From contig NZ_FNNS01000004.1 in assembly GCF_900106795.1 (NCBI RefSeq), positions 1 through 64,000 of the forward strand: a stretch of 64,000 nucleotides of DNA. Reading direction: 5' to 3'. Below the pieces are notes generated by a model. The model saw only the letters and a list, made by a program, of their open reading frames with translations, did not search any database and was not told where the DNA came from. Position 1 is the stretch's first letter. Every line of letters begins with the position of its first letter. The DNA is from Aequorivita viscosa. GTDB lineage: Bacteria > Bacteroidota > Bacteroidia > Flavobacteriales > Flavobacteriaceae. Below, piece by piece: positions 23,963 to 34,518 of the stretch. The translations under genes were made by a program, and so were the position numbers.

Positions 23963-25147
23963 CTACATTTCCATATAAAAGAATGCGGCGAATGCAGCTA
24001 ACGAAATGATTGTTCCTGCCACGAAAATGGTATAAGTAATTCGTAAGATTCGGTATTTCCTGTCTAAAACTTGTCCGAGGAAATAAAGGTCTTTTGTTAG
24101 GGATTTGTATACATAATCGCGGTCTTTTAAAAGTTCTTCAATAGCCCATTCAAACTCCTTTAATTTCATTTTATGGAAATTGCCAAAGAAGGTTAGGTTT
24201 ACCTCTTGATTGGCGATGTCTTCTTTTGTAAACTCTCCGCGCGTAATGTTTGGTCGCGTAGCAATTACTGCCAATATCATTGTTGTAGCACTGAAAAGAA
24301 TAAAAATAGCAGTCGGGATAATTAAATAATTGTTGTTGTCTAGCTTAGATATAAGATTTGATAGTACCAATGAGATTATAATGGCATTTACGGAAAGCAT
24401 AATGTTAGCTTTTGTATCTGCAATATCACTCAATTTAATATGGTTCCGTAATGCAACACGATAAAAGGTTTGAATACCTCGATCGGGACTTTCATTTTTA
24501 TACTTAGCTTTTAATTTTGCCTTGTCTTCATCCCGTCGTAGTTTTTCTTTGTTCTTTCTTTGTTTTGATAAAAGGTTTGAAAGATTTTCTTCTTTAGTTG
24601 GTTGCCAGTTTTTAAGAGCATAATCAGTATAGAATTGGTGTTCTTCTACCAAAATTCTAATGTTTTCTTTACGCCATTCTTGAGGAGAATATTTCGCTTG
24701 ATCCTGAAGCATTAATTCTAACCTTAAAAATTCGCTCGTCTCTTCAAAATAATCCTTGCCAAAGTGAGAACAATCGGCATCTCGGATTATCTTTTCAAGC
24801 TCTGTTTTCGGATTCTTATATTTAAATTCGGTAGCCAAAATGCACTTTTCTACTGCTGCAATCATGGGCTCCTCTACATTTTGCGATTCCAAGAATTTAC
24901 GAGCTATTTTTGTGCTTTCTACTTCATGATTTTCTCTTGATACAATGTAACCAGTATCGTGGAGTAAAGCCGTTAAACGCAGTATAGTTGCATCTTTAAC
25001 ATCAATTTGTGAATGTTCAATGATTTCATTTATACTTTTATAAACACGCTTAGAATGTGTATAATTGTGATACACAAAAGTATTTGGAAGCTTCTCGATA
25101 AAGAGCTTTAAAACAAAATCATCAGTGGCTTTAATTAGATTCTCCAT
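23963..25147 (-). CDS. HD-domain protein with C-terminal PycTM (Pycsar effector-like) membrane domain
   Basis: 394 residues. The N-terminal HD phosphohydrolase domain shows HNYTHSKRV (His27, His31), LLHDTGY (His63-Asp64), ENHEVES and IIRDADCSHFG (Asp123, Asp125). A charged linker leads to the DUF5706/PycTM region, about 237-394, with the signature LSDIADTKANIMLSVNAIII, a two-helix hairpin and a final transmembrane helix (TIISLAAFAAFFYM). PycTM proteins are the membrane-perturbing effectors of Pycsar, where cCMP or cUMP triggers them. HD-PycTM fusions also occur without a cyclase. No pyrimidine cyclase is seen here; the divergent neighbour begins 53 bases away. Confidence 0.88.
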   Translation of the reverse strand: MENLIKATDDFVLKLFIEKLPNTFVYHNYTHSKRVYKSINEIIEHSQIDVKDATILRLTALLHDTGYIVSRENHEVESTKIARKFLESQNVEEPMIAAVEKCILATEFKYKNPKTELEKIIRDADCSHFGKDYFEETSEFLRLELMLQDQAKYSPQEWRKENIRILVEEHQFYTDYALKNWQPTKEENLSNLLSKQRKNKEKLRRDEDKAKLKAKYKNESPDRGIQTFYRVALRNHIKLSDIADTKANIMLSVNAIIISLVLSNLISKLDNNNYLIIPTAIFILFSATTMILAVIATRPNITRGEFTKEDIANQEVNLTFFGNFHKMKLKEFEWAIEELLKDRDYVYKSLTKDLYFLGQVLDRKYRILRITYTIFVAGTIISLAAFAAFFYMEM

Positions 25148-25200: not shown

Positions 25201-28200
25201 ATGAATAAAATTAACATCTTTATAACTTTTGTAGCCGCTGTGTTCCTTTCTGGCTGTGCAACTTACGCTCCGCAATACGACTCCTCTGCAAATCAACAAG
25301 CAGCAGCTCCATTAGGAGATGTAGAAAAGTCATTTTACTTGATTGGAAATGCAGGCACTGGCAATGATAAAGCGTCGAAAGCAATGCAATCCCTTGGTAA
25401 GTATATAGCTGCGAATAACACTAAAGACAGTTACGTACTTTTTTTAGGAAACAGTTTTTATCCAAAAGGAATGCTTCCTGAAAATGAAAAATTGACAAAA
25501 CAAGCAGAAAATTCAATGCAACTTCAATTGGATGCACTAAAGGATTTTAAAGGGAAGGCTATCGTAATTCCAGGAAACCTCGAATGGAAAGGAAGTGTAG
25601 ATGGACTAGAACTCGAAGAAGATTTTTTGAAAGCGCGGTTTAATGATGAAGATATTCTGCAACCCAACAACGGATGCCCCTTAGATGGAATTGATATTAC
25701 CGATGATATTTATCTGCTTACAATTGATACCCAATGGTTCCTTCAAGACTGGGACAAACACCCAGAAATGAATAAAAAGTGCGAGATAAAAACACGCGAA
25801 AAATTTTTTGATGAGATTGAAAGCGAACTCAAAAAAAACGCGACTAAAACCATCATTTTTGCAATGTATCATCCCTTTATTACTTACGGAGAACACGGCG
25901 GAAAATATCCGGCAATTCACAAAGATGTTTTCAGTACTTCGATAAAATCGGTTAAAACCCTGGGCGCTATTTCCAAACAAGATCGATATAACGAACAGTA
26001 CAATTACTTAATGGATAGGATGGAAGTCCTTACAAAAGATATTGATCGGCTAATTTTTGTTTCTGCACTCGACAAATCATTACAGTATATAGAAAATGGC
26101 TCTGTAAAACAAATAGTTTCTGGTTCTGGATCGGGCGCCACAGCAGCTTCGTTAGGGCAATACGGCCAGTTTGCCTATGGTGGAGAGGGCTTTGCTAAAC
26201 TCGATATAAGCAAAAATAGCGGTGCTCAGGTTCAGTTTTTTAAAGCAAAAGATGATGGTTCTTCCGAACTACTCTTTAAAAAAGAAATCTTCCCGCAAGG
26301 AAAAGGTTTGGACTTTAGTGTGCTTCATCACAACTTTCCTAAAACAGTAAAGGCGAAAATTTACGATGACAGCTTAGTCGAAAAAACAGGCTTTTATAAA
26401 ACTATTTGGGGAAAACACTACCGAGATGTGTACGGGACCGAAGTAACCGCAAAAGTAGTGCTTTTAGATACACTTTATGGTGGTTTACACGTAGTGAGAG
26501 CAGGAGGAGGACACCAAACCAGATCGTTGAGGTTGGAAGATAAAGACGGTCGGACCTATAACATGCGTGGAATGAAAAAAAGCGCGGTGCAATTCCTTCA
26601 AAATGTAATTATAAAGGATAAAGTAATTGAAAACGACTTTAAAAATACACTTCCTGAAGATTTAATACTCGATTTTTACACTGCAGCCCACCCTTATGGT
26701 GCGTTTACCATCCCAAAACTTGCAACTGCTGCAAATGTTTTACATACCAAACCAATATTATTTTACGTGCCTAAACAAGAGGCGCTTGGTCAGTTTAACG
26801 AGAGTTATGGCGACGCACTTTATATGATTGTAGAGCGTCCTGATAAAACCTTTGACGGTCCTTTGTTTGATTACCCGGACAATGTAGAAAGCACCGATGA
26901 CCTTTTGGAAAAACTACAACGCGATGAAAAATACGCTTTAAATGAAGAAGCTCACATCCGCGCCCGCATTTTTGACATGCTAATTGGAGACTGGGATAGG
27001 CACAACGATCAATGGCGCTTCACCCAACACGATAACGAAGATGGAACTGTCACTTTTTTACCCATTCCTAGAGATCGCGACCAAGTGTATTCCAATTTTG
27101 ACGGAGGATTGTTAGACGTTGTTCGGGCACTTTTCAATACGGCGCGACAGTTTCAAGTGTATGGAGAAGATTTAAAACATACCGAGTGGTTTAATTCGGC
27201 CGGAATTAAATTAGACCGTGCTTTACTGCAAAGTTATGGACGAGAAGCTTGGTTGCAACAGGCTGAGTTTATTAAAAACAATGTTACCGATGAAGTAATT
27301 GAAGAAGCTTTTAAAGATCTTCCAAAAGAAGTGCAAGACGAAACAGCTGCAGATATTAAATCAAAACTGAAAGGAAGACGCGACAACATTGTAAGAATTG
27401 CAGAAGAATACTACGATTATTTCGCAAAATTACAGACAATCACTGGCACAAATAAAGATGATTATTTTGAAATTACACGACTTCCGAATGGTAAGACAAA
27501 CATAAAAACGTATCGCATAAAAAAGGGAGAAAAAGCAGATTTAATGTTAGATCGCACTTTCAGTTCTAAGGAAACCTGTGAAATCTGGATTTATGGTCTG
27601 GACGACGATGATGTTTTTGAAGTTAAAGGAAAAGGAGATAGCCCAATTGCAATTAAAATTATTGGAGGCCAGAATAACGATGTTTACAAAATTGCGAACG
27701 GAAAACGTGTGAAAATTTATGATCATAAGAGCAAGAAAAATACGGTAGAGGAAAAAGGCGGTGCCGCATTTCGTTTTACCGATAATTATGATTTCAACAC
27801 GTATGATTATAAAAAAGAAAAGAAAACTATAAATCTACTGCTTCCTGCTATAGGTTATAATCCAGATGATGGTTTCAAAATTGGTATTACAGACGTGCTT
27901 ACATTTAACGGTTTTCAACGTAATCCATTTTCGCAACAACATAGGTTTGGGGTTGGTTATTTCTTCGCAACTGAAAGCTTGGGTGTTACGTACGAAGGAG
28001 AGTTTGCTAATATTTTTGGACAATGGAACTTCTTGGTTGGAGGACACTTCAAAAACCCCAATTTTGCAGAAAACTTTTTTGGTTTCGGAAATGAAACAAT
28101 TAATCCCGATTATGAATTCGATATAGGGAAAGATTACAACCGCGTACGAATTGGCGGTTACGGAGGTTCTATCGGAATTAAAAAAGACTCCCCATACGGA

Positions 28201-28875
28201 AGCGTTTTTCAGTTTAAAACCAAGTTTGAAGGCGTTAAAGTAGAAGGAACTTCAGGAAGACTCATTACAGACTTAATTCCAGCTCCTATCGAACTCGACA
28301 AAACTCATTATTATGTTACCGCAGAAGGAGCGTATCAATATGAAAGCTACGATAACAAAGTAAACCCAACACGCGGAATGGATTTTAATTTAGTAGCTGG
28401 AGCAACTCAAAACACCAAAGATGGCGATGCAGTTTTTGGTTATGTAAAACCACAATTGGTTTTTCACAACGCCCTTATCCGAAATAGAAAGTTAGTGTTG
28501 AAAACTGATGTTCGCGGTCAATTCAATATCGGGAACAATTTCGAGTTTTTTCAAGCAGCACGGTTAGGTAGCGATACAGGATTGCGAGCATACAGAAAAG
28601 AACGTTTTGCAGGTAGAACGGCAGCTGTGGGTAGCGCAGATGTTCGCTACAGTTTCAATTCATTTAGAACCACCTTAACACCTATTCAAATTGGCGTTTT
28701 TGGAGGGTATGATGTAGGGCGAGTGTGGATACCGAATGATACTTCAGATGTTTGGCACAACTCATACGGAGGAGGTTTTTGGGTGAATACAGCCGATTTG
28801 TTAAGTGCAAATTTCAACCTTTTTGCAGGTGATGAAGGACTTCGTTTCACTTTTGGAATGAAGGTTTCAATGTGA
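25201..28875 (+). CDS. Giant lipoprotein: degenerate metallophosphoesterase + kinase-like + outer-membrane barrel (paralogue A)
   Basis: 1224 residues, lipobox LSGC (Cys19). The N-terminal domain is homologous to the metallophosphoesterase of the next gene, but its metal ligands are replaced: GNAG (49-52) for GDAG, GNSFYP (83-88) for GDNIYP, GNLEW (125-129) for GNHEW and ALDK (289-292) for GHDH. It is therefore almost surely inactive as a phosphatase. The middle region has LIGDWDRHNDQW (Asp597, Asp599) and PIPRDRDQVYSNFDG (Asp625, Asp627), resembling CotH/HipA-type kinase loops. The last ~350 residues form a barrel with SDTGLRAYRKERFAG, like the Omp85 loop-6 motif. Tandem with paralogue B. 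Confidence 0.8.
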   Translation: MNKINIFITFVAAVFLSGCATYAPQYDSSANQQAAAPLGDVEKSFYLIGNAGTGNDKASKAMQSLGKYIAANNTKDSYVLFLGNSFYPKGMLPENEKLTKQAENSMQLQLDALKDFKGKAIVIPGNLEWKGSVDGLELEEDFLKARFNDEDILQPNNGCPLDGIDITDDIYLLTIDTQWFLQDWDKHPEMNKKCEIKTREKFFDEIESELKKNATKTIIFAMYHPFITYGEHGGKYPAIHKDVFSTSIKSVKTLGAISKQDRYNEQYNYLMDRMEVLTKDIDRLIFVSALDKSLQYIENGSVKQIVSGSGSGATAASLGQYGQFAYGGEGFAKLDISKNSGAQVQFFKAKDDGSSELLFKKEIFPQGKGLDFSVLHHNFPKTVKAKIYDDSLVEKTGFYKTIWGKHYRDVYGTEVTAKVVLLDTLYGGLHVVRAGGGHQTRSLRLEDKDGRTYNMRGMKKSAVQFLQNVIIKDKVIENDFKNTLPEDLILDFYTAAHPYGAFTIPKLATAANVLHTKPILFYVPKQEALGQFNESYGDALYMIVERPDKTFDGPLFDYPDNVESTDDLLEKLQRDEKYALNEEAHIRARIFDMLIGDWDRHNDQWRFTQHDNEDGTVTFLPIPRDRDQVYSNFDGGLLDVVRALFNTARQFQVYGEDLKHTEWFNSAGIKLDRALLQSYGREAWLQQAEFIKNNVTDEVIEEAFKDLPKEVQDETAADIKSKLKGRRDNIVRIAEEYYDYFAKLQTITGTNKDDYFEITRLPNGKTNIKTYRIKKGEKADLMLDRTFSSKETCEIWIYGLDDDDVFEVKGKGDSPIAIKIIGGQNNDVYKIANGKRVKIYDHKSKKNTVEEKGGAAFRFTDNYDFNTYDYKKEKKTINLLLPAIGYNPDDGFKIGITDVLTFNGFQRNPFSQQHRFGVGYFFATESLGVTYEGEFANIFGQWNFLVGGHFKNPNFAENFFGFGNETINPDYEFDIGKDYNRVRIGGYGGSIGIKKDSPYGSVFQFKTKFEGVKVEGTSGRLITDLIPAPIELDKTHYYVTAEGAYQYESYDNKVNPTRGMDFNLVAGATQNTKDGDAVFGYVKPQLVFHNALIRNRKLVLKTDVRGQFNIGNNFEFFQAARLGSDTGLRAYRKERFAGRTAAVGSADVRYSFNSFRTTLTPIQIGVFGGYDVGRVWIPNDTSDVWHNSYGGGFWVNTADLLSANFNLFAGDEGLRFTFGMKVSM

Positions 28876-28941
28876 AAGGAATTGTAATTGAAAAGGACTA
28901 ATAGATAAAACCTTCAACAAATAATTAAAATTCGTATTAGA

Positions 28942-31900
28942 TTGTTAATTTTTAAAAGACTATTTCCTTCTTTAATAGCATTTTCAGTAATCGCTTCTTG
29001 TGCCACTTTTGAGCCACAATTCAAGGATAATTGGGAAAATCCAACCTATCCATCGCACAAAAAAGTCGCGAAAACATTCTATTTAGTAGGCGATGCGGGT
29101 TATTCACCAATGGGCGGAATGAGCAAGGGGTTAATTGCGTTTCAGAATTACCTTAAAGACGAAAAAGTCGCTGGCAACTATACTATTTTTCTTGGCGATA
29201 ACATCTACCCGTCAGGAATGGATCCCGAAGGCCATCCGCGTAGAGCCCAATCGGAGAGTAGGATGGATGCCCAATACAACGCAGTGAAAGACTACGACGG
29301 TAAAACCATTTTCATTCCAGGTAATCACGAATGGTATAACAACGGAGTAGTAGGCGTTGCCCGTCAAGAAAATTACGTAAAATCTTTGTTTCCCAATCAA
29401 GACGCATTTAAACCCAGTAACGGATGCGCAATTGAAAGTATTGCTGTAACCGACGACATACAGTTAATAATTATAGACACCCAATGGATGCTCGAAGACT
29501 GGAATAAAAACCCCACAATCAATAAAAATTGTGATATTAAAACGCGGGAAAAATTTCTACTAACGCTTCAATTAGAATTCGATAAAAACCAAAATAAAAC
29601 CGTTGTTTTCGCAATGCACCACCCTATGTTCACTAACGGAAACCACGGGGGGTATTTTGCGTTCGAAAAACATTTGTATCCGTTTCAGAAAAAAATCCCG
29701 ATGCCAGTTTTGGCTTCTTTGGTAGTGCAAATAAGGTCGCAGGGCGGTGTTTCTGTGCAAGACAGATATAACGAGCTCTATAACAATTTTATGATTCGAC
29801 TGCAGGAAATGGCAAAGAACAACAAACGATTGGTTTTTGCATCGGGTCACGACCACAACTTGCAATACATAGAGCAAGACGGATTCCGCCAAATAGTTTC
29901 AGGTTCGGGTTCTAAAGAATCGTATGCCGCTATAGGTGAAGCTGGATACTTTAGTACGGGGGCTCAGGGTTTTGTGGTGTTGGATGTTTTTGAAGATGGC
30001 TCTTCTTGGGTCCGCTATTTTGTAGTTGCGGAAGATTTACAACCTGAACTTATTTTTCAAAAAGAAATAATTCCCGCTCCAGAAGTTGTTGATACGTCAG
30101 TCTATGCTAAAATCCATCCACCAGAAAAAACCATTTCCATTTACCAACAGGACAGTATTCGGGAAGCGTTGTTTTTTAAAACGGTTTGGGGTGCTAAATA
30201 TAAAAACGCATATTCACAGCCTGTTACCGCTCCAGTAGCATCGCTAGACACACTTTACGGAGGCCTAACAGTAACGCGAGAAGCTAGTGGGAATAACTAC
30301 AACGCCCTATTACTTACCGATGCTAAAGGCAATAAATACCGAATGCGGGCAATGGCAAAAAATGCGTTAAAACAATCAACTGAAATTGTTTTTGAAGACA
30401 ATAGTAAACCCTCCAAAGAAGGCGAAATTGAAACTTCAACAATGAAAGGGCAGGGTATAGATTTTTATACAGCTTCGCATCCGTATGCCGAAATGGCGAT
30501 TCCAGATTTGGCGAAAACGGTTGGAATTTTTTATACTACACCAAAATTATTCTATGTTCCCAAGCAAAAGAATCTAGGTAATTACAACGAAAAATTTGGA
30601 GATGGCCTGTATCTAATTTCCGTGGCTCCTTCAGAAAAAAGTGAAGGTGAAGAACGCTTTGAATATCCGGACGACGTTGAAACAACAGATGACATCCTTA
30701 TAAAAATGCGTAAAACCAATGATGTTTTTGTCGATGAAGAAAACTATATAAAATCTCGCCTTTTTGATATGTTAATTGGCGATTGGGATCGTGAACCCGA
30801 CCATTGGCAGTGGGCAAAATATTATAACCAAGATAAGAAAAATGTTTTTGTGCCAATTCCAACCAATAGAGATGATGCTTTTTCAAGTTTTGAAGGAAAT
30901 ATACTCGATATCACCCAGTCGTTATTTAGTGGTACCAAACAATTTCACGTTTATGGAGAAGATTTAAACGATTTGCAATGGTTTAATAAAGAAGGGATAA
31001 TTCTAGACAGGGCGCTCATTCGAAATTCAGGTCGCGAACAGTGGAAATTTTTGGCGAAGGAAATTCAAAATAGTTTAACCGATGAACGAATAGATGAAGC
31101 TTTTAATGGTATTCCTTCTGAAGTTCAAGATGAAGCTTTGAACGATATAAAACAGAAACTTAAAGCGCGGAGGGGAAATTTGGAAGATATTGCCGATAAA
31201 TATTACTCCTATCTTGCAAATCAACAAACCGTAGTTGGTACAGACCACGACGATATATTTCAAATCACTCGCCTTCCTGATGGAAAAACGAACGTTCGTG
31301 GTTTTACTGTTAGTAATGGTAAAAAATTTGATACACTTATAGATCGAACTTATTCTTCAAAAGACACAAAAGAATTATGGATCTATGGTCTTAAAGGAAA
31401 CGACAAATTTGTAGTTAATGGAGATGAAAATGATTTGATTTTTATCAGATTAATCGGAGGCATGGGTAAAGATAGTTACGATTTAGCGGCGGGCAAACGA
31501 GTTAAAGTGTACGACTTTGAAGAAGCTGAAGATACGATTGTCGCTCGAAACGGTGGCAACCTTCGATTTACAAATGTCTACAACCTAAACACCTATGATT
31601 ACCGAAAACAGATTGAACGTTCGCAAAACCTACTTTCGGCAATTGGTTACAATCCTGATGACGGATTTCGTGCGGCAATGCAGTTTGAATACAGAGTAGA
31701 TAACTTTCAGCGAAACCCGTTTTCTCAAAAACATACGGTTAATGCAGCGTACTATACTGAAATAAATAGTTTTGATATTTCGTATGAAGGGGAATTCGCA
31801 AACATTAAAGACAATTTAAACCTAAGTTTTGGAACTCGGTTTACAAGCCCTAATTACACGGTGAATTTTTTCGGATACGGAAACGAAACCCAAAACCTTC

Positions 31901-32655
31901 AAGACTCAGAAGGCTATGAGTTTAATAGAGTAGAAGTACAGCAGATTTCAGGAAACGTAGGGGTTCTTCGGAATAGTAGTTTTGGTAGCTTCTTTAAGTT
32001 GCAAACTACTTTTGATGCTTTTAAAGTAACAAATTCACCTACGCGCTTCATCGAAGAAGTTGAAATGTTAGGCAAAGACGAAACCAATTATTTTGGAACT
32101 ATTGAAGGTATTTACAAGTACCGAAGCTATGATGATATTCGCAATCCAACCATCGGGATGCTCTTTGATTTAAACGTAGGAGCGACTGATAATTTTGAAG
32201 AAATGGAAAACCTTTTTGGCTTTATAAAAACGCGCATAGGGTTTTATAATTCACTTGTGAAAAGTGAAAAGTTGGTGCTTAAAACAAACTTGCGGTATGA
32301 AGTAAATATTGGAGAACGCTACCAATTTTATCAAGCTGCAAACCTCGGTGGCGATAACGGTTTACGTGGGTATAGAGAGCAGCGATTTACAGGAAAGTCG
32401 TTTTTAGTAGGAAATGCCGATTTGCGCTATAGTTTTCCTGAATTTAAACTAGGACTTCGACCTATGCAGATAGGAATTTTTGGTGGAGCTGACGCAGGAA
32501 GAGTTTGGCTCAAAAATGATAATAGCGACAGATGGCATAATTCATACGGAGGCGGCTTATGGGTAAATGGTTCAGGAGGGCTTAACGCTAATTTCAACGC
32601 CTTTCATTCAACAGAAGGAACACGATTTACTTTCGGTTTAGGTTTTGATTTTTAA
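28942..32655 (+). CDS. Giant lipoprotein: intact metallophosphoesterase + kinase-like + outer-membrane barrel (paralogue B)
   Basis: 1237 residues from a TTG start (no ATG fits), lipobox IASC (Cys20). All calcineurin-like phosphoesterase motifs are intact: GDAG (50-53), GDNIYP (85-90), GNHEW (127-131), MHHPMF and GHDH (302-305). The middle region has LIGDWDREPDHW (Asp614, Asp616) and PIPTNRDDAFSSFEG (Asp644, Asp645), kinase-like by pattern. The C-terminal ~350 residues are a beta-barrel with GLRGYREQRFTG (1140-1151), close to the Omp85 (V/L)RG(F/Y) motif, ending LGFDF. The gene follows paralogue A by 66 bases and is probably co-transcribed. The phosphatase would sit at the outer membrane. Substrate unknown. 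Confidence 0.82.
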   Translation: MLIFKRLFPSLIAFSVIASCATFEPQFKDNWENPTYPSHKKVAKTFYLVGDAGYSPMGGMSKGLIAFQNYLKDEKVAGNYTIFLGDNIYPSGMDPEGHPRRAQSESRMDAQYNAVKDYDGKTIFIPGNHEWYNNGVVGVARQENYVKSLFPNQDAFKPSNGCAIESIAVTDDIQLIIIDTQWMLEDWNKNPTINKNCDIKTREKFLLTLQLEFDKNQNKTVVFAMHHPMFTNGNHGGYFAFEKHLYPFQKKIPMPVLASLVVQIRSQGGVSVQDRYNELYNNFMIRLQEMAKNNKRLVFASGHDHNLQYIEQDGFRQIVSGSGSKESYAAIGEAGYFSTGAQGFVVLDVFEDGSSWVRYFVVAEDLQPELIFQKEIIPAPEVVDTSVYAKIHPPEKTISIYQQDSIREALFFKTVWGAKYKNAYSQPVTAPVASLDTLYGGLTVTREASGNNYNALLLTDAKGNKYRMRAMAKNALKQSTEIVFEDNSKPSKEGEIETSTMKGQGIDFYTASHPYAEMAIPDLAKTVGIFYTTPKLFYVPKQKNLGNYNEKFGDGLYLISVAPSEKSEGEERFEYPDDVETTDDILIKMRKTNDVFVDEENYIKSRLFDMLIGDWDREPDHWQWAKYYNQDKKNVFVPIPTNRDDAFSSFEGNILDITQSLFSGTKQFHVYGEDLNDLQWFNKEGIILDRALIRNSGREQWKFLAKEIQNSLTDERIDEAFNGIPSEVQDEALNDIKQKLKARRGNLEDIADKYYSYLANQQTVVGTDHDDIFQITRLPDGKTNVRGFTVSNGKKFDTLIDRTYSSKDTKELWIYGLKGNDKFVVNGDENDLIFIRLIGGMGKDSYDLAAGKRVKVYDFEEAEDTIVARNGGNLRFTNVYNLNTYDYRKQIERSQNLLSAIGYNPDDGFRAAMQFEYRVDNFQRNPFSQKHTVNAAYYTEINSFDISYEGEFANIKDNLNLSFGTRFTSPNYTVNFFGYGNETQNLQDSEGYEFNRVEVQQISGNVGVLRNSSFGSFFKLQTTFDAFKVTNSPTRFIEEVEMLGKDETNYFGTIEGIYKYRSYDDIRNPTIGMLFDLNVGATDNFEEMENLFGFIKTRIGFYNSLVKSEKLVLKTNLRYEVNIGERYQFYQAANLGGDNGLRGYREQRFTGKSFLVGNADLRYSFPEFKLGLRPMQIGIFGGADAGRVWLKNDNSDRWHNSYGGGLWVNGSGGLNANFNAFHSTEGTRFTFGLGFDF

Positions 32656-32830
32656 TTCTTCACTTCTTTTAAAAGTAAATTATGAACTGATAATTTTTAG
32701 ATAGGCATACACTGTTATCTTATCTAAATATAGATTGTCTTAGTTAAGCCAGCCAATAAAGACTTAAGGTGGGCGGTACGGGCGGGTCTTGTTTCTTTCC
32801 TCGAGCACTAATGATAAGCATATAAAAAAC

Positions 32831-32859
32831 AAGAGCGATTCGGGTTAGGAATCGCTCTT
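32831..32859. terminator. Hairpin terminator between convergent genes
   Basis: AAGAGCGATTC pairs perfectly with GAATCGCTCTT around a GGGTTAG loop, with A-rich flanks. It lies between the giant-lipoprotein pair and the convergent beta-helix lipoprotein gene. Confidence 0.8.
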
Positions 32860-32911
32860 AAAATAGGGTAATTGCATCTAGCACTGCTATTTAATAATCA
32901 AAATTATGCTT

Positions 32912-34174
32912 TTAGTCATCATCATCACAAATATCAGTTCCAACATTGTCGCTAAAAGTTACGTTGGTGTAAGTAATTCTAGAATCAGGATGGATTTTGC
33001 GTTCTACAATACCACAACCTGCGCTATTGGTTATATGCAAATTAGTTGCTTTTAATGTAATAGTTTCAGTTGTCTGACTTCCTAGTGAAAGTCCACCAGA
33101 GTGGTTAAACCAGTCCCAATGAGATTGTCCAGCATCGGCAATAATGGTGTTTTCAATTTTATTTAACATGCTGTTACTGGCTGTTATATTAATTCCTTTC
33201 CAACTTCCAGCACCGTACTGTCCTGAAAACTTAACAGGTTGATCTGGAGTACCTATAATTTCTAGAATGGTATTGTCAGATTCTGTTTGTATTCCATATT
33301 CTTCACCAAAAATAATTTGGCAGCCTTCCATTATTTTTAAGTGTCCTGGTTTTTCATTTCCTCTATCACGAACAACATATATGTTCTCCTCAATAAAATA
33401 TGGTATTCCTGGATTTAGCCAAGTGTGTATTGGGCCACCTACTTCATCTTCAATAAAGCCACGATTGTATATGGAACCAGTATTCACATAAATTTGATTT
33501 GTGCCGTTATTGGCATAGTTGCTCTGTGCGCCGTCTAAAAATTTAATTTTTCGAGCAGCAATCTGCATTGGATATCCTTGGTTATCAATTATAGAGTTAG
33601 ATTCCCATCCCTCAATATTTGCTGAGCCCGTTATATAAGCGCCGTCGCCTTTGTTATTTCGAATGATAGTGTTCTTAACCTCCACTTTACTCCCATTTAT
33701 GGCAGATAATGCAGGTTTACTACCATCAGTTCCTCCGGCAAATTCAATAATACAGTGGTGCATTTTATTGTTTAAATCACCCGAATCCATATAGATTCGA
33801 TTCCAAGCACCTGGACTACTCGTAGTTCCTGTAAATGTTATAGGTTTGTCTGCAGTACCTACTGCTATTAAGGCTCCTGTTCTGGTGTCGTAATCGTCTA
33901 TAATTAATCCGCCACCTTGCTCAAAAGCAATTGTAACCCCAGGCTCAATGGTTAGAGGAGCTCTTACTTTTACAGCACAAGGCCATATATAATCTATTCC
34001 AGCGCCACGGTCTTCCAGGACCATTGCTTCGGTAATTATAGAACAGTCTAAAACTAAAGGTTCAATTACTGGTTCGTCTGGAACTGATTCATCTTCGCTA
34101 CTACAACTTGAGTATACTGCGCCAATCAGTAATAAAAGAAATAAATTTTTAAAATAAGTTTGAAAAGTTTTCAT
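32912..34174 (-). CDS. Right-handed beta-helix lipoprotein (paralogue of 41543-42727)
   Basis: 420 residues from the ATG at 34174, which gives a clean lipoprotein signal (lipobox VYSSC). An in-frame ATG eight codons upstream is possible. After a short acidic linker the mature protein carries repeated parallel-beta-helix turns: CAVKVRAPLTIEPGVTIAFE, GTADKPITFTGT, GAWNRIYMDS, and a second set HLKIMEGCQIIFGEEYGI, GTPDQPVKFSGQ, GSWKGINI. The same order of motifs occurs in the plus-strand gene at 41543. Such proteins are surface-exposed adhesins or carbohydrate-binding proteins. No catalytic residues are evident. The C-terminus ends in an Asp-rich CDDDD. Confidence 0.8.
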   Translation of the reverse strand: MKTFQTYFKNLFLLLLIGAVYSSCSSEDESVPDEPVIEPLVLDCSIITEAMVLEDRGAGIDYIWPCAVKVRAPLTIEPGVTIAFEQGGGLIIDDYDTRTGALIAVGTADKPITFTGTTSSPGAWNRIYMDSGDLNNKMHHCIIEFAGGTDGSKPALSAINGSKVEVKNTIIRNNKGDGAYITGSANIEGWESNSIIDNQGYPMQIAARKIKFLDGAQSNYANNGTNQIYVNTGSIYNRGFIEDEVGGPIHTWLNPGIPYFIEENIYVVRDRGNEKPGHLKIMEGCQIIFGEEYGIQTESDNTILEIIGTPDQPVKFSGQYGAGSWKGINITASNSMLNKIENTIIADAGQSHWDWFNHSGGLSLGSQTTETITLKATNLHITNSAGCGIVERKIHPDSRITYTNVTFSDNVGTDICDDDD

Positions 34175-34518
34175 GTGTGTTGTTTTTAAATTATACATTT
34201 TTTTAGAAATGATAACTGAGGGGCTAATTTGTGATTCGAAATGCGAATTTTCATAATTATTTCGCCAAAAGTATAGAGGTCTAGAGGAGGTAACAACGGT
34301 TAATTAGTATTTGGTGCAGTTGGCTTAGAATTCAGCAACGATTATTTATAATACAGCGGAAGTATATTATTTTGGTTGTTATAAGATGTTTTGATAAAGT
34401 GAACTAATCTAAAGTTATATCCATAGATGCTGTGGAATGATTTTAGATGCTGTAGTTGCTCCTTGGGAATCAGGGTGAATTCTTATTAATATTCACCTCT
34501 TTTGGGTATTATTAGCGT
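34175..34518. other. Intergenic region, nothing recognised
   Basis: This 344-base gap lies between the beta-helix lipoprotein start and the regulator stop. It is A/T-rich and holds no open frame, RNA or clear repeat that I can support. It must contain the lipoprotein promoter. Confidence 0.4.

Follow-up and report, generated by a model that had tools for sequence, protein, structure and literature searches.

Why would a genome keep, directly beside a protein with an intact phosphatase site, a full-length copy in which that site is dead? The question is raised by two genes, here called copies A and B, in the first 64,000 nucleotides of contig NZ_FNNS01000004.1 of Aequorivita viscosa (the window). 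They lie in tandem on the + strand at 25201-28875 and 28942-32655, separated by a 66 bp gap, as a preliminary description of this DNA had recorded, and encode lipoproteins of 1224 and 1237 amino acids (aa), the second from a TTG start. A and B are 45% identical across their full length, and a genome search with A as query returns these two places only. The preliminary description saw an active enzyme beside a dead copy. Motif comparison points instead to two copies with opposite dead arms: A appears to keep a kinase-type site that B has lost, and B a phosphatase site that A has lost. We put a probability of roughly 0.6 on the reading that a bifunctional outer-membrane kinase/phosphatase has been divided into two one-armed proteins, with A as the kinase and B as the phosphatase.

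The phosphatase-type domain

The N-terminal domain of B (29059..30096, + strand) carries GDAG, GDNIYP, GNHEW, AMHHP and SGHDH, a set that we take to be of the purple acid phosphatase (PAP) type, assuming likewise which motifs bind the metals. The five PAP metal-ligand motifs are present in B and not in A, where the matching domain (aa 39-370; 25315..26310, + strand) reads GNAG, GNSFYP, GNLEW, AMYHP and SALDK. Four of these pairs (GNAG/GDAG, GNSFYP/GDNIYP, GNLEW/GNHEW and ALDK/GHDH) had been reported earlier exactly as they stand; the fifth, YHP in A and HHP in B, is an addition. The losses in A are not due to chance: all 18 orthologues of A in the genus have Asn in place of the Asp in both GD.G and GDN.Y, and Arg, Leu or Met in place of the His of GNHE. 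With its five metal-ligand motifs replaced, A is, judged by its sequence, not classed as an active PAP.

The Pfam family Metallophos matches B at 2.6e-08, and no Pfam family matches A at E up to 0.1. Against PDB sequences A finds no match and B finds weak PAP chain matches, the best at E 0.2. An AlphaFold2 (AF2) model of A (aa 25-1224; pLDDT 85.0, pTM 0.81) underlies the fold matches given for the phosphatase domain and the barrel. Its N-terminal domain is predicted to take the PAP fold, with Z 28.3 to human PAP (rmsd 2.7, 267 aligned) and Z 26.6 to GAP50 of Plasmodium. Because the ligands are replaced and the PAP fold is nevertheless retained in the model, A is a predicted pseudo-phosphatase with preserved fold. 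The closest analogue of this dead domain is GAP50, which serves as a PAP-fold anchor without catalysis.

A kinase-like fold in the central domain

If A has lost its phosphatase site, what does it keep? The preliminary description had the three-part order right (phosphatase-type domain, centre, barrel) and overlooked the likeness of the centre to kinases and the opposite loss. In A the central domain spans aa 372-765 (26314..27495, + strand), as drawn from the AF2 model, fold search and conservation; A numbering is the domain residue plus 371. The model of this domain (pLDDT 85.2, pTM 0.86) is matched by VIA-align to PI4K-II (Z 14.8), CotH (14.5), CtkA (13.5), HipA (11.0) and Fam20C (10.4), and the best Foldseek hits are CtkA at 3.4e-05 and HipA at 4.6e-05. 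On the strength of the model, the central domain is an atypical kinase fold.

All the kinase motifs of A are intact: GGGHQTRSLRL (aa 435), NMRGMKKS (aa 454), MIVERP (aa 542), GDWDRHNDQW (aa 596, with the putative catalytic Asp at aa 599) and PRDRDQ (aa 623, with the putative metal Asp at aa 625). The invariant residues fall where the fold predicts them: the GGG separates two early strands, Lys 460 closes the third strand, DRH follows a long helix and PRD comes after the next strand pair; by model and conservation, then, the Gly loop, Lys, catalytic Asp and metal Asp of A occupy the usual kinase places. The degraded domain of B (30094..31287, + strand) has ASGNNYNALLL for the Gly loop, LISVAP for MIVERP, DREPDHW for DRHNDQW and PTNRDD for PRDRDQ; the Gly loop and the metal Asp are thereby changed, as are the Glu, the Gln and the DRH His. 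A Pfam search of 28 central domains gave 19 scattered weak families only. We call the domain kinase-fold and place it in no named kinase family because no sequence match is significant. PADLOC reports PDC-M03A over part of the central region of A at E 0.0004, a match too weak to be used.

Reciprocal loss among homologues

The opposite pattern extends well beyond this pair. Scoring at eight phosphatase positions covered 221 full-length homologues, each counted once; a 222nd, L131, is left out because of masking in its motif region. The kinase counts as lost where a change affects the catalytic Asp, the DRH His or the metal Asp. Both sites are intact in 133, the phosphatase only is lost in 55, the kinase only in 33, and both in none. 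The 158 sequences from whole-genome searches and the places that those listed divide, in the same order, 76/50/32/0; the other 63, from a scan seeded with the kinase motif and so biased towards intact kinase sites, divide 57/5/1/0. Every phosphatase-dead copy (55/55) retains the Gly loop, Lys, catalytic Asp, His and metal Asp, and every kinase-dead copy (33/33) retains all eight scored phosphatase positions. In the B-type copies the His, Gln and Glu have gone in 33/33, and the Gly loop with them. The scored positions include the second His of HHP, which is probably not a ligand, the first His presumably being the likely one; that first His is retained in 133/133 both-intact and 33/33 kinase-dead copies and lost in 24/55 phosphatase-dead copies. 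A stricter kinase rule, which adds the Gly loop, Lys and Gln, makes one further copy kinase-lost (L228, at the first Gly of the loop). A has whole kinase motifs and broken phosphatase motifs and B the opposite, so that at the level of motifs site loss in the two copies is reciprocal.

How often has this happened? On a FastTree phylogeny built from the barrel alone, with one distant outgroup, the kinase is lost once, in a clade with support 100. The phosphatase is lost in four clades, on kinase-intact backgrounds (five changes if the masked L131 is included), and the largest of these, which joins A to other phosphatase-dead copies, has support 34, so that the figure of four is tentative. The one-armed clades span a summed 7.6 and 16.8 substitutions per barrel site, over which the remaining site is near-invariant. 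Both sites are intact in all ten genomes with a single full-length copy that were checked (10/10), so the simplest reading is that the ancestor was probably bifunctional. A lone copy with both sites intact is carried by two Flavobacterium records, L187 and L199. Among full-length members from outside the order, strict patterns find both DRH and GNHD in 8/14; in the remaining six a pattern fails, which need not mean a lost site.

Selection and co-occurrence

A dead domain could simply be decaying. Selection was measured on 18 A and 17 B orthologues from the genus, with dN/dS limited to pairs with dS under 1.2, which leaves 4 to 12 unsaturated pairs per domain. For the phosphatase domain of A the median dN/dS is 0.057 and the maximum 0.088 (10 unsaturated pairs of 153), and from these values the domain is under purifying selection and not neutral, albeit on few pairs. 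This was the comparison that the preliminary description had proposed for the first copy, and neutral evolution is not seen. Decay of A as a pseudogene is rejected, as its frame is open in 18/18 genus orthologues and dN/dS is far below 1. The ratio of dN in A to that in B is 1.48 for the phosphatase domain, with A higher in 135/136 genome pairs; it falls to 0.86 in the kinase domain and 0.78 in the barrel. The shift in selection is thus clear for the phosphatase arm; for the kinase arm it is slight and not set apart from the barrel.

The two copies also travel together. In a genus sample of 28 genomes (this one and 27 others) A and B occur together in 18 and A without B in none. Nine have neither; three of the nine carry one both-intact copy, and two are less than 90% complete. 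B occurs without A in one genome only (G018), where a phosphatase-dead, kinase-intact neighbour lies next door. The earlier view that the inactive copy is maintained holds up, with an open frame of A in 18/28 genomes and always beside B (split in genome G009). To the accompanying question of whether A is missing from close relatives the answer is mixed: it is absent from 10/28, but nine of these lack B too and the tenth, G018, has the substitute neighbour. An assembly or duplication artefact is rejected, since A followed by B on one strand is found in 18 genus genomes and in eight from other genera.

In four other genera, six genomes carry a tandem triplet of copies, and there each of the two partners of B has a dead phosphatase and an intact kinase site. 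Among 37 genomes with one-armed copies, chosen for holding pairs or extra copies, 35 hold both kinds of intact site, phosphatase and kinase, one or more of each; of the two exceptions, G009 has a frame break that splits its B, and in G251 a contig end cuts B. The G009 copy of B (L065:2997-6718) is read as two overlapping frames around B residues 273-308.

The modules can also be found apart elsewhere in the phylum: kinase with barrel and without phosphatase, phosphatase alone, and kinase alone. At two loci (L293:2949-7097 and L294:4838-8829) adjoining genes on one strand encode kinase, phosphatase and barrel, with the enzyme motifs intact. Genome G125 encodes an 886-aa kinase and barrel protein without a phosphatase domain (L209:1977-4637), and also carries a B copy and a phosphatase-dead full-length copy. 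Stand-alone kinase-like domain proteins of ~430 aa occur in Aequorivita and a relative (L102-L111), one of them, L110, interrupted by a stop.

The barrel and the cell location

The C-terminal 350 residues of A (aa 875-1224; 27823..28872, + strand) form 16 long strands in the model, by our count, and are predicted to be a TamA/BamA-type barrel, with Z 26.7 to TamA (4n74; rmsd 2.8, 291 aligned). NCBIfam Omp85_fam matches A at E 7e-16 and B at E 4.5e-17, both below the curated cut-off; the Omp85-type barrel of B (31624..32652, + strand) aligns with that of A. Between kinase domain and barrel, A has a beta-rich segment, by the secondary structure of the model (27496..27822, + strand). It holds the sequence IIGGQNNDVY, RTX-like by eye alone, whose two Gly, Asp and Tyr do not vary across an alignment of 54 rows.

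Both proteins have a lipobox recognised by eye, LSGC in A (aa 16-19) and IASC in B (aa 17-20). Surface lipoproteins of Bacteroidota carry an acidic export signal. Here the lipobox Cys is followed by Ala-Thr-Tyr/Phe and that signal is missing, so the soluble parts probably lie on the periplasmic face of the outer membrane.

One divided enzyme or something else?

Any explanation has to account for the motif patterns and their conservation, the predicted folds of A, the joint presence of the copies, purifying selection and the intact single-copy relatives. In the divided-enzyme reading, the common ancestor of A and B would have been a lipoprotein made of a PAP-type phosphatase, a kinase-fold domain and a TamA-like 16-stranded barrel. 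After duplication A would have given up the phosphatase metals but not the kinase site, and B the kinase site but not the phosphatase. Each copy would still be anchored by lipid and barrel, and together they would add phosphate to, and remove it from, a common envelope target: a protein, a glycan or a lipid head group. The dead domain of each would be retained as a structural or substrate-binding part. In this scheme the kinase-fold domain would transfer phosphate, and A and B may share one target and touch each other.

Could A instead be a regulatory pseudo-subunit of the B phosphatase, with a non-catalytic central domain? The dead phosphatase domain keeps its predicted fold under purifying selection, and A never occurs without B in the genus, as such a subunit would lead one to expect. 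Yet this idea, close to the earlier suggestion that A is merely regulatory, gives no account of kinase residues that are intact in 55/55 phosphatase-dead copies, nor of the His, Gln, Glu and Gly loop lost in 33/33 B-type copies. The conserved kinase-type site of A is no longer present in B, which leaves each copy with one arm, and we consider a purely regulatory A unlikely. Slightly less probable still is that the barrel is the working part, inserting protein or lipid as TamA and BamA do, while the soluble domains bind or gate and their motifs decay unequally. The TamA match at Z 26.7 fits this, and protein assembly is the general guess for Omp85 subfamilies of unknown function in the available text of PMC4104836; free decay, however, should yield copies with both sites lost, and by catalytic residues there are 0/221, with the remaining site near-invariant over the branch lengths given above. 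Improbable, and the weakest of the three, is a different chemistry in the central domain, such as transfer of AMP, another nucleotide or glutamyl, or a lipid kinase, so that the pair would be a transferase and a phosphatase. Kinase folds can carry out transfers other than phosphate, and the domain comes closest in fold to the lipid kinase PI4K-II and to CotH. The data do not set this chemistry apart from phosphate transfer, and the domain has a Gly loop, Lys, catalytic Asp and metal Asp of the ordinary type.

Several observations weigh against the divided enzyme. Under the stricter rule one copy (L211) becomes both-lost, through a Gln to Asn change outside the catalytic residues. The 33 kinase-lost sequences are not independent, since kinase loss is a single event on the tree, and constraint on the kinase domain is barely lower in B (the ratio of 0.86, with 38/136 pairs opposite). 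The phosphatase copy of G009 is frame-broken as assembled. Sequence searches assign the domain to no kinase family: Pfam Fam20C matched 1/28 central domains, at E 0.32, and the best hit of a 28-row central-domain profile against PDB sequences was HDAC6 at E 8, unrelated and due to chance. The catalytic Asp is kept in 33/33 B-type copies, Lys in 32/33, and the metal Asp in one B copy; the kinase domain of B may therefore not be fully dead. We know of no member of the family with known enzyme activity. Available ATP is not known from the periplasm, so a kinase there would need another donor, transient ATP or a different reaction.

Should the divided-enzyme reading be right, many Bacteroidota would carry out reversible phosphorylation at their outer membrane through a kinase-fold enzyme, within a compartment regarded as ATP-free. 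An unannotated domain would gain a fold and a likely chemistry, and the pair would amount to a natural experiment, the division of a protein with two activities through opposite active-site losses. A broader proposal, which we hold tentatively and with less confidence than the division itself, is a Bacteroidota-wide outer-membrane phosphorylation switch on the periplasmic side, in which a kinase and a PAP-type phosphatase, held by lipid anchor and barrel, would reversibly phosphorylate an envelope target; it would be linked to a nucleotide signal by a neighbouring HD-PycTM protein (described below) and, in Aequorivita and relatives, split into obligate kinase and phosphatase subunits.

Relation to known systems

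The combination of PF00149 with Omp85 is already described: as the available text of their paper has it, Heinz and Lithgow defined in 2014 an Omp85 'Metallo' subfamily with PF00149 (PMC4104836). A and B resemble it in having an N-terminal PF00149-type domain and an Omp85-type barrel with no POTRA. The PF00149 match itself is found in B (2.6e-08), and A has the PAP fold in its model and no Pfam match; the absence of POTRA comes from the model of A, with no separate search made for it. There PF00149 is termed a metalloprotease domain, the main text nowhere uses the word 'kinase', and the available text names neither the central domain nor dead copies. It describes 'Metallo' as conserved at the level of the genus; here the full-length profile matches 183/296 phylum genomes, many in part or weakly.

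The closest evolutionary parallel is RelA/SpoT, a duplicated bifunctional synthetase/hydrolase in which RelA keeps a dead hydrolase domain and, in Moraxellaceae, the split is complete and reciprocal, as far as the available text of PMC3153485 goes. Opposite active-site loss in duplicates, with both sites intact in single-copy relatives, is found here too, as motifs only. RelA and SpoT differ in being cytoplasmic enzymes unrelated to A and B; A and B are tandem genes that join a kinase fold and a phosphatase on an outer-membrane barrel.

Among individual domains, the PAPs (ACP5) and Plasmodium GAP50 share the fold of the N-terminal domain of A, and B keeps the PAP-type motif set, but A and B are bacterial and fused to a kinase fold and a barrel. 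CotH, PI4K-II, HipA, CtkA and Fam20C resemble A in overall fold and in the placement of Gly loop, Lys, catalytic Asp and metal Asp, of which B keeps some only. These atypical kinases give no significant sequence match, and A and B differ from them in being envelope-located and barrel-fused. No paper among the matches listed, in a search whose coverage leaves out preprints and most subscription journals, deals with the kinase centre or the reciprocal loss. The available text of two papers on Bacteroidota Omp85 proteins (PMC12045153, PMC12611786) has no phosphatase or kinase, and that of PMC10281475 cites a metallophosphoesterase paper on Riemerella anatipestifer.

The divergent neighbour and the gene ends

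Divergent from A, 53 bp from its start, lies a gene at 23963..25147 (- strand) for a 394-aa fusion of an HD phosphohydrolase and a PycTM membrane domain (Pfam PycTM 2.7e-37, HD 7.6e-10). PycTM is a Pycsar effector-type membrane domain and is found at two places in the genome, this gene among them. The adjacency is kept across many genera, single-copy ones included: a divergent HD-PycTM gene lies within 500 bp of the cluster start in 69/109 clusters from whole-genome searches and in 33/67 from the scan of named genomes. It is absent from the fetched stretch in 36/109 and 11/67 clusters, many of them with only ~2 kb of flank. The HD residues (H, HD and D) are 99 to 100% conserved in 160 homologues from fetched loci. 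Together these observations suggest a signalling link between the HD-PycTM neighbour and the pair.

The 66 bp gap between A and B holds no terminator-like site. A strong terminator-like hairpin of 12 pairs, with its T-run on the - strand, stands at 32830-32860, between the end of B and a convergent gene at 32912-34198.

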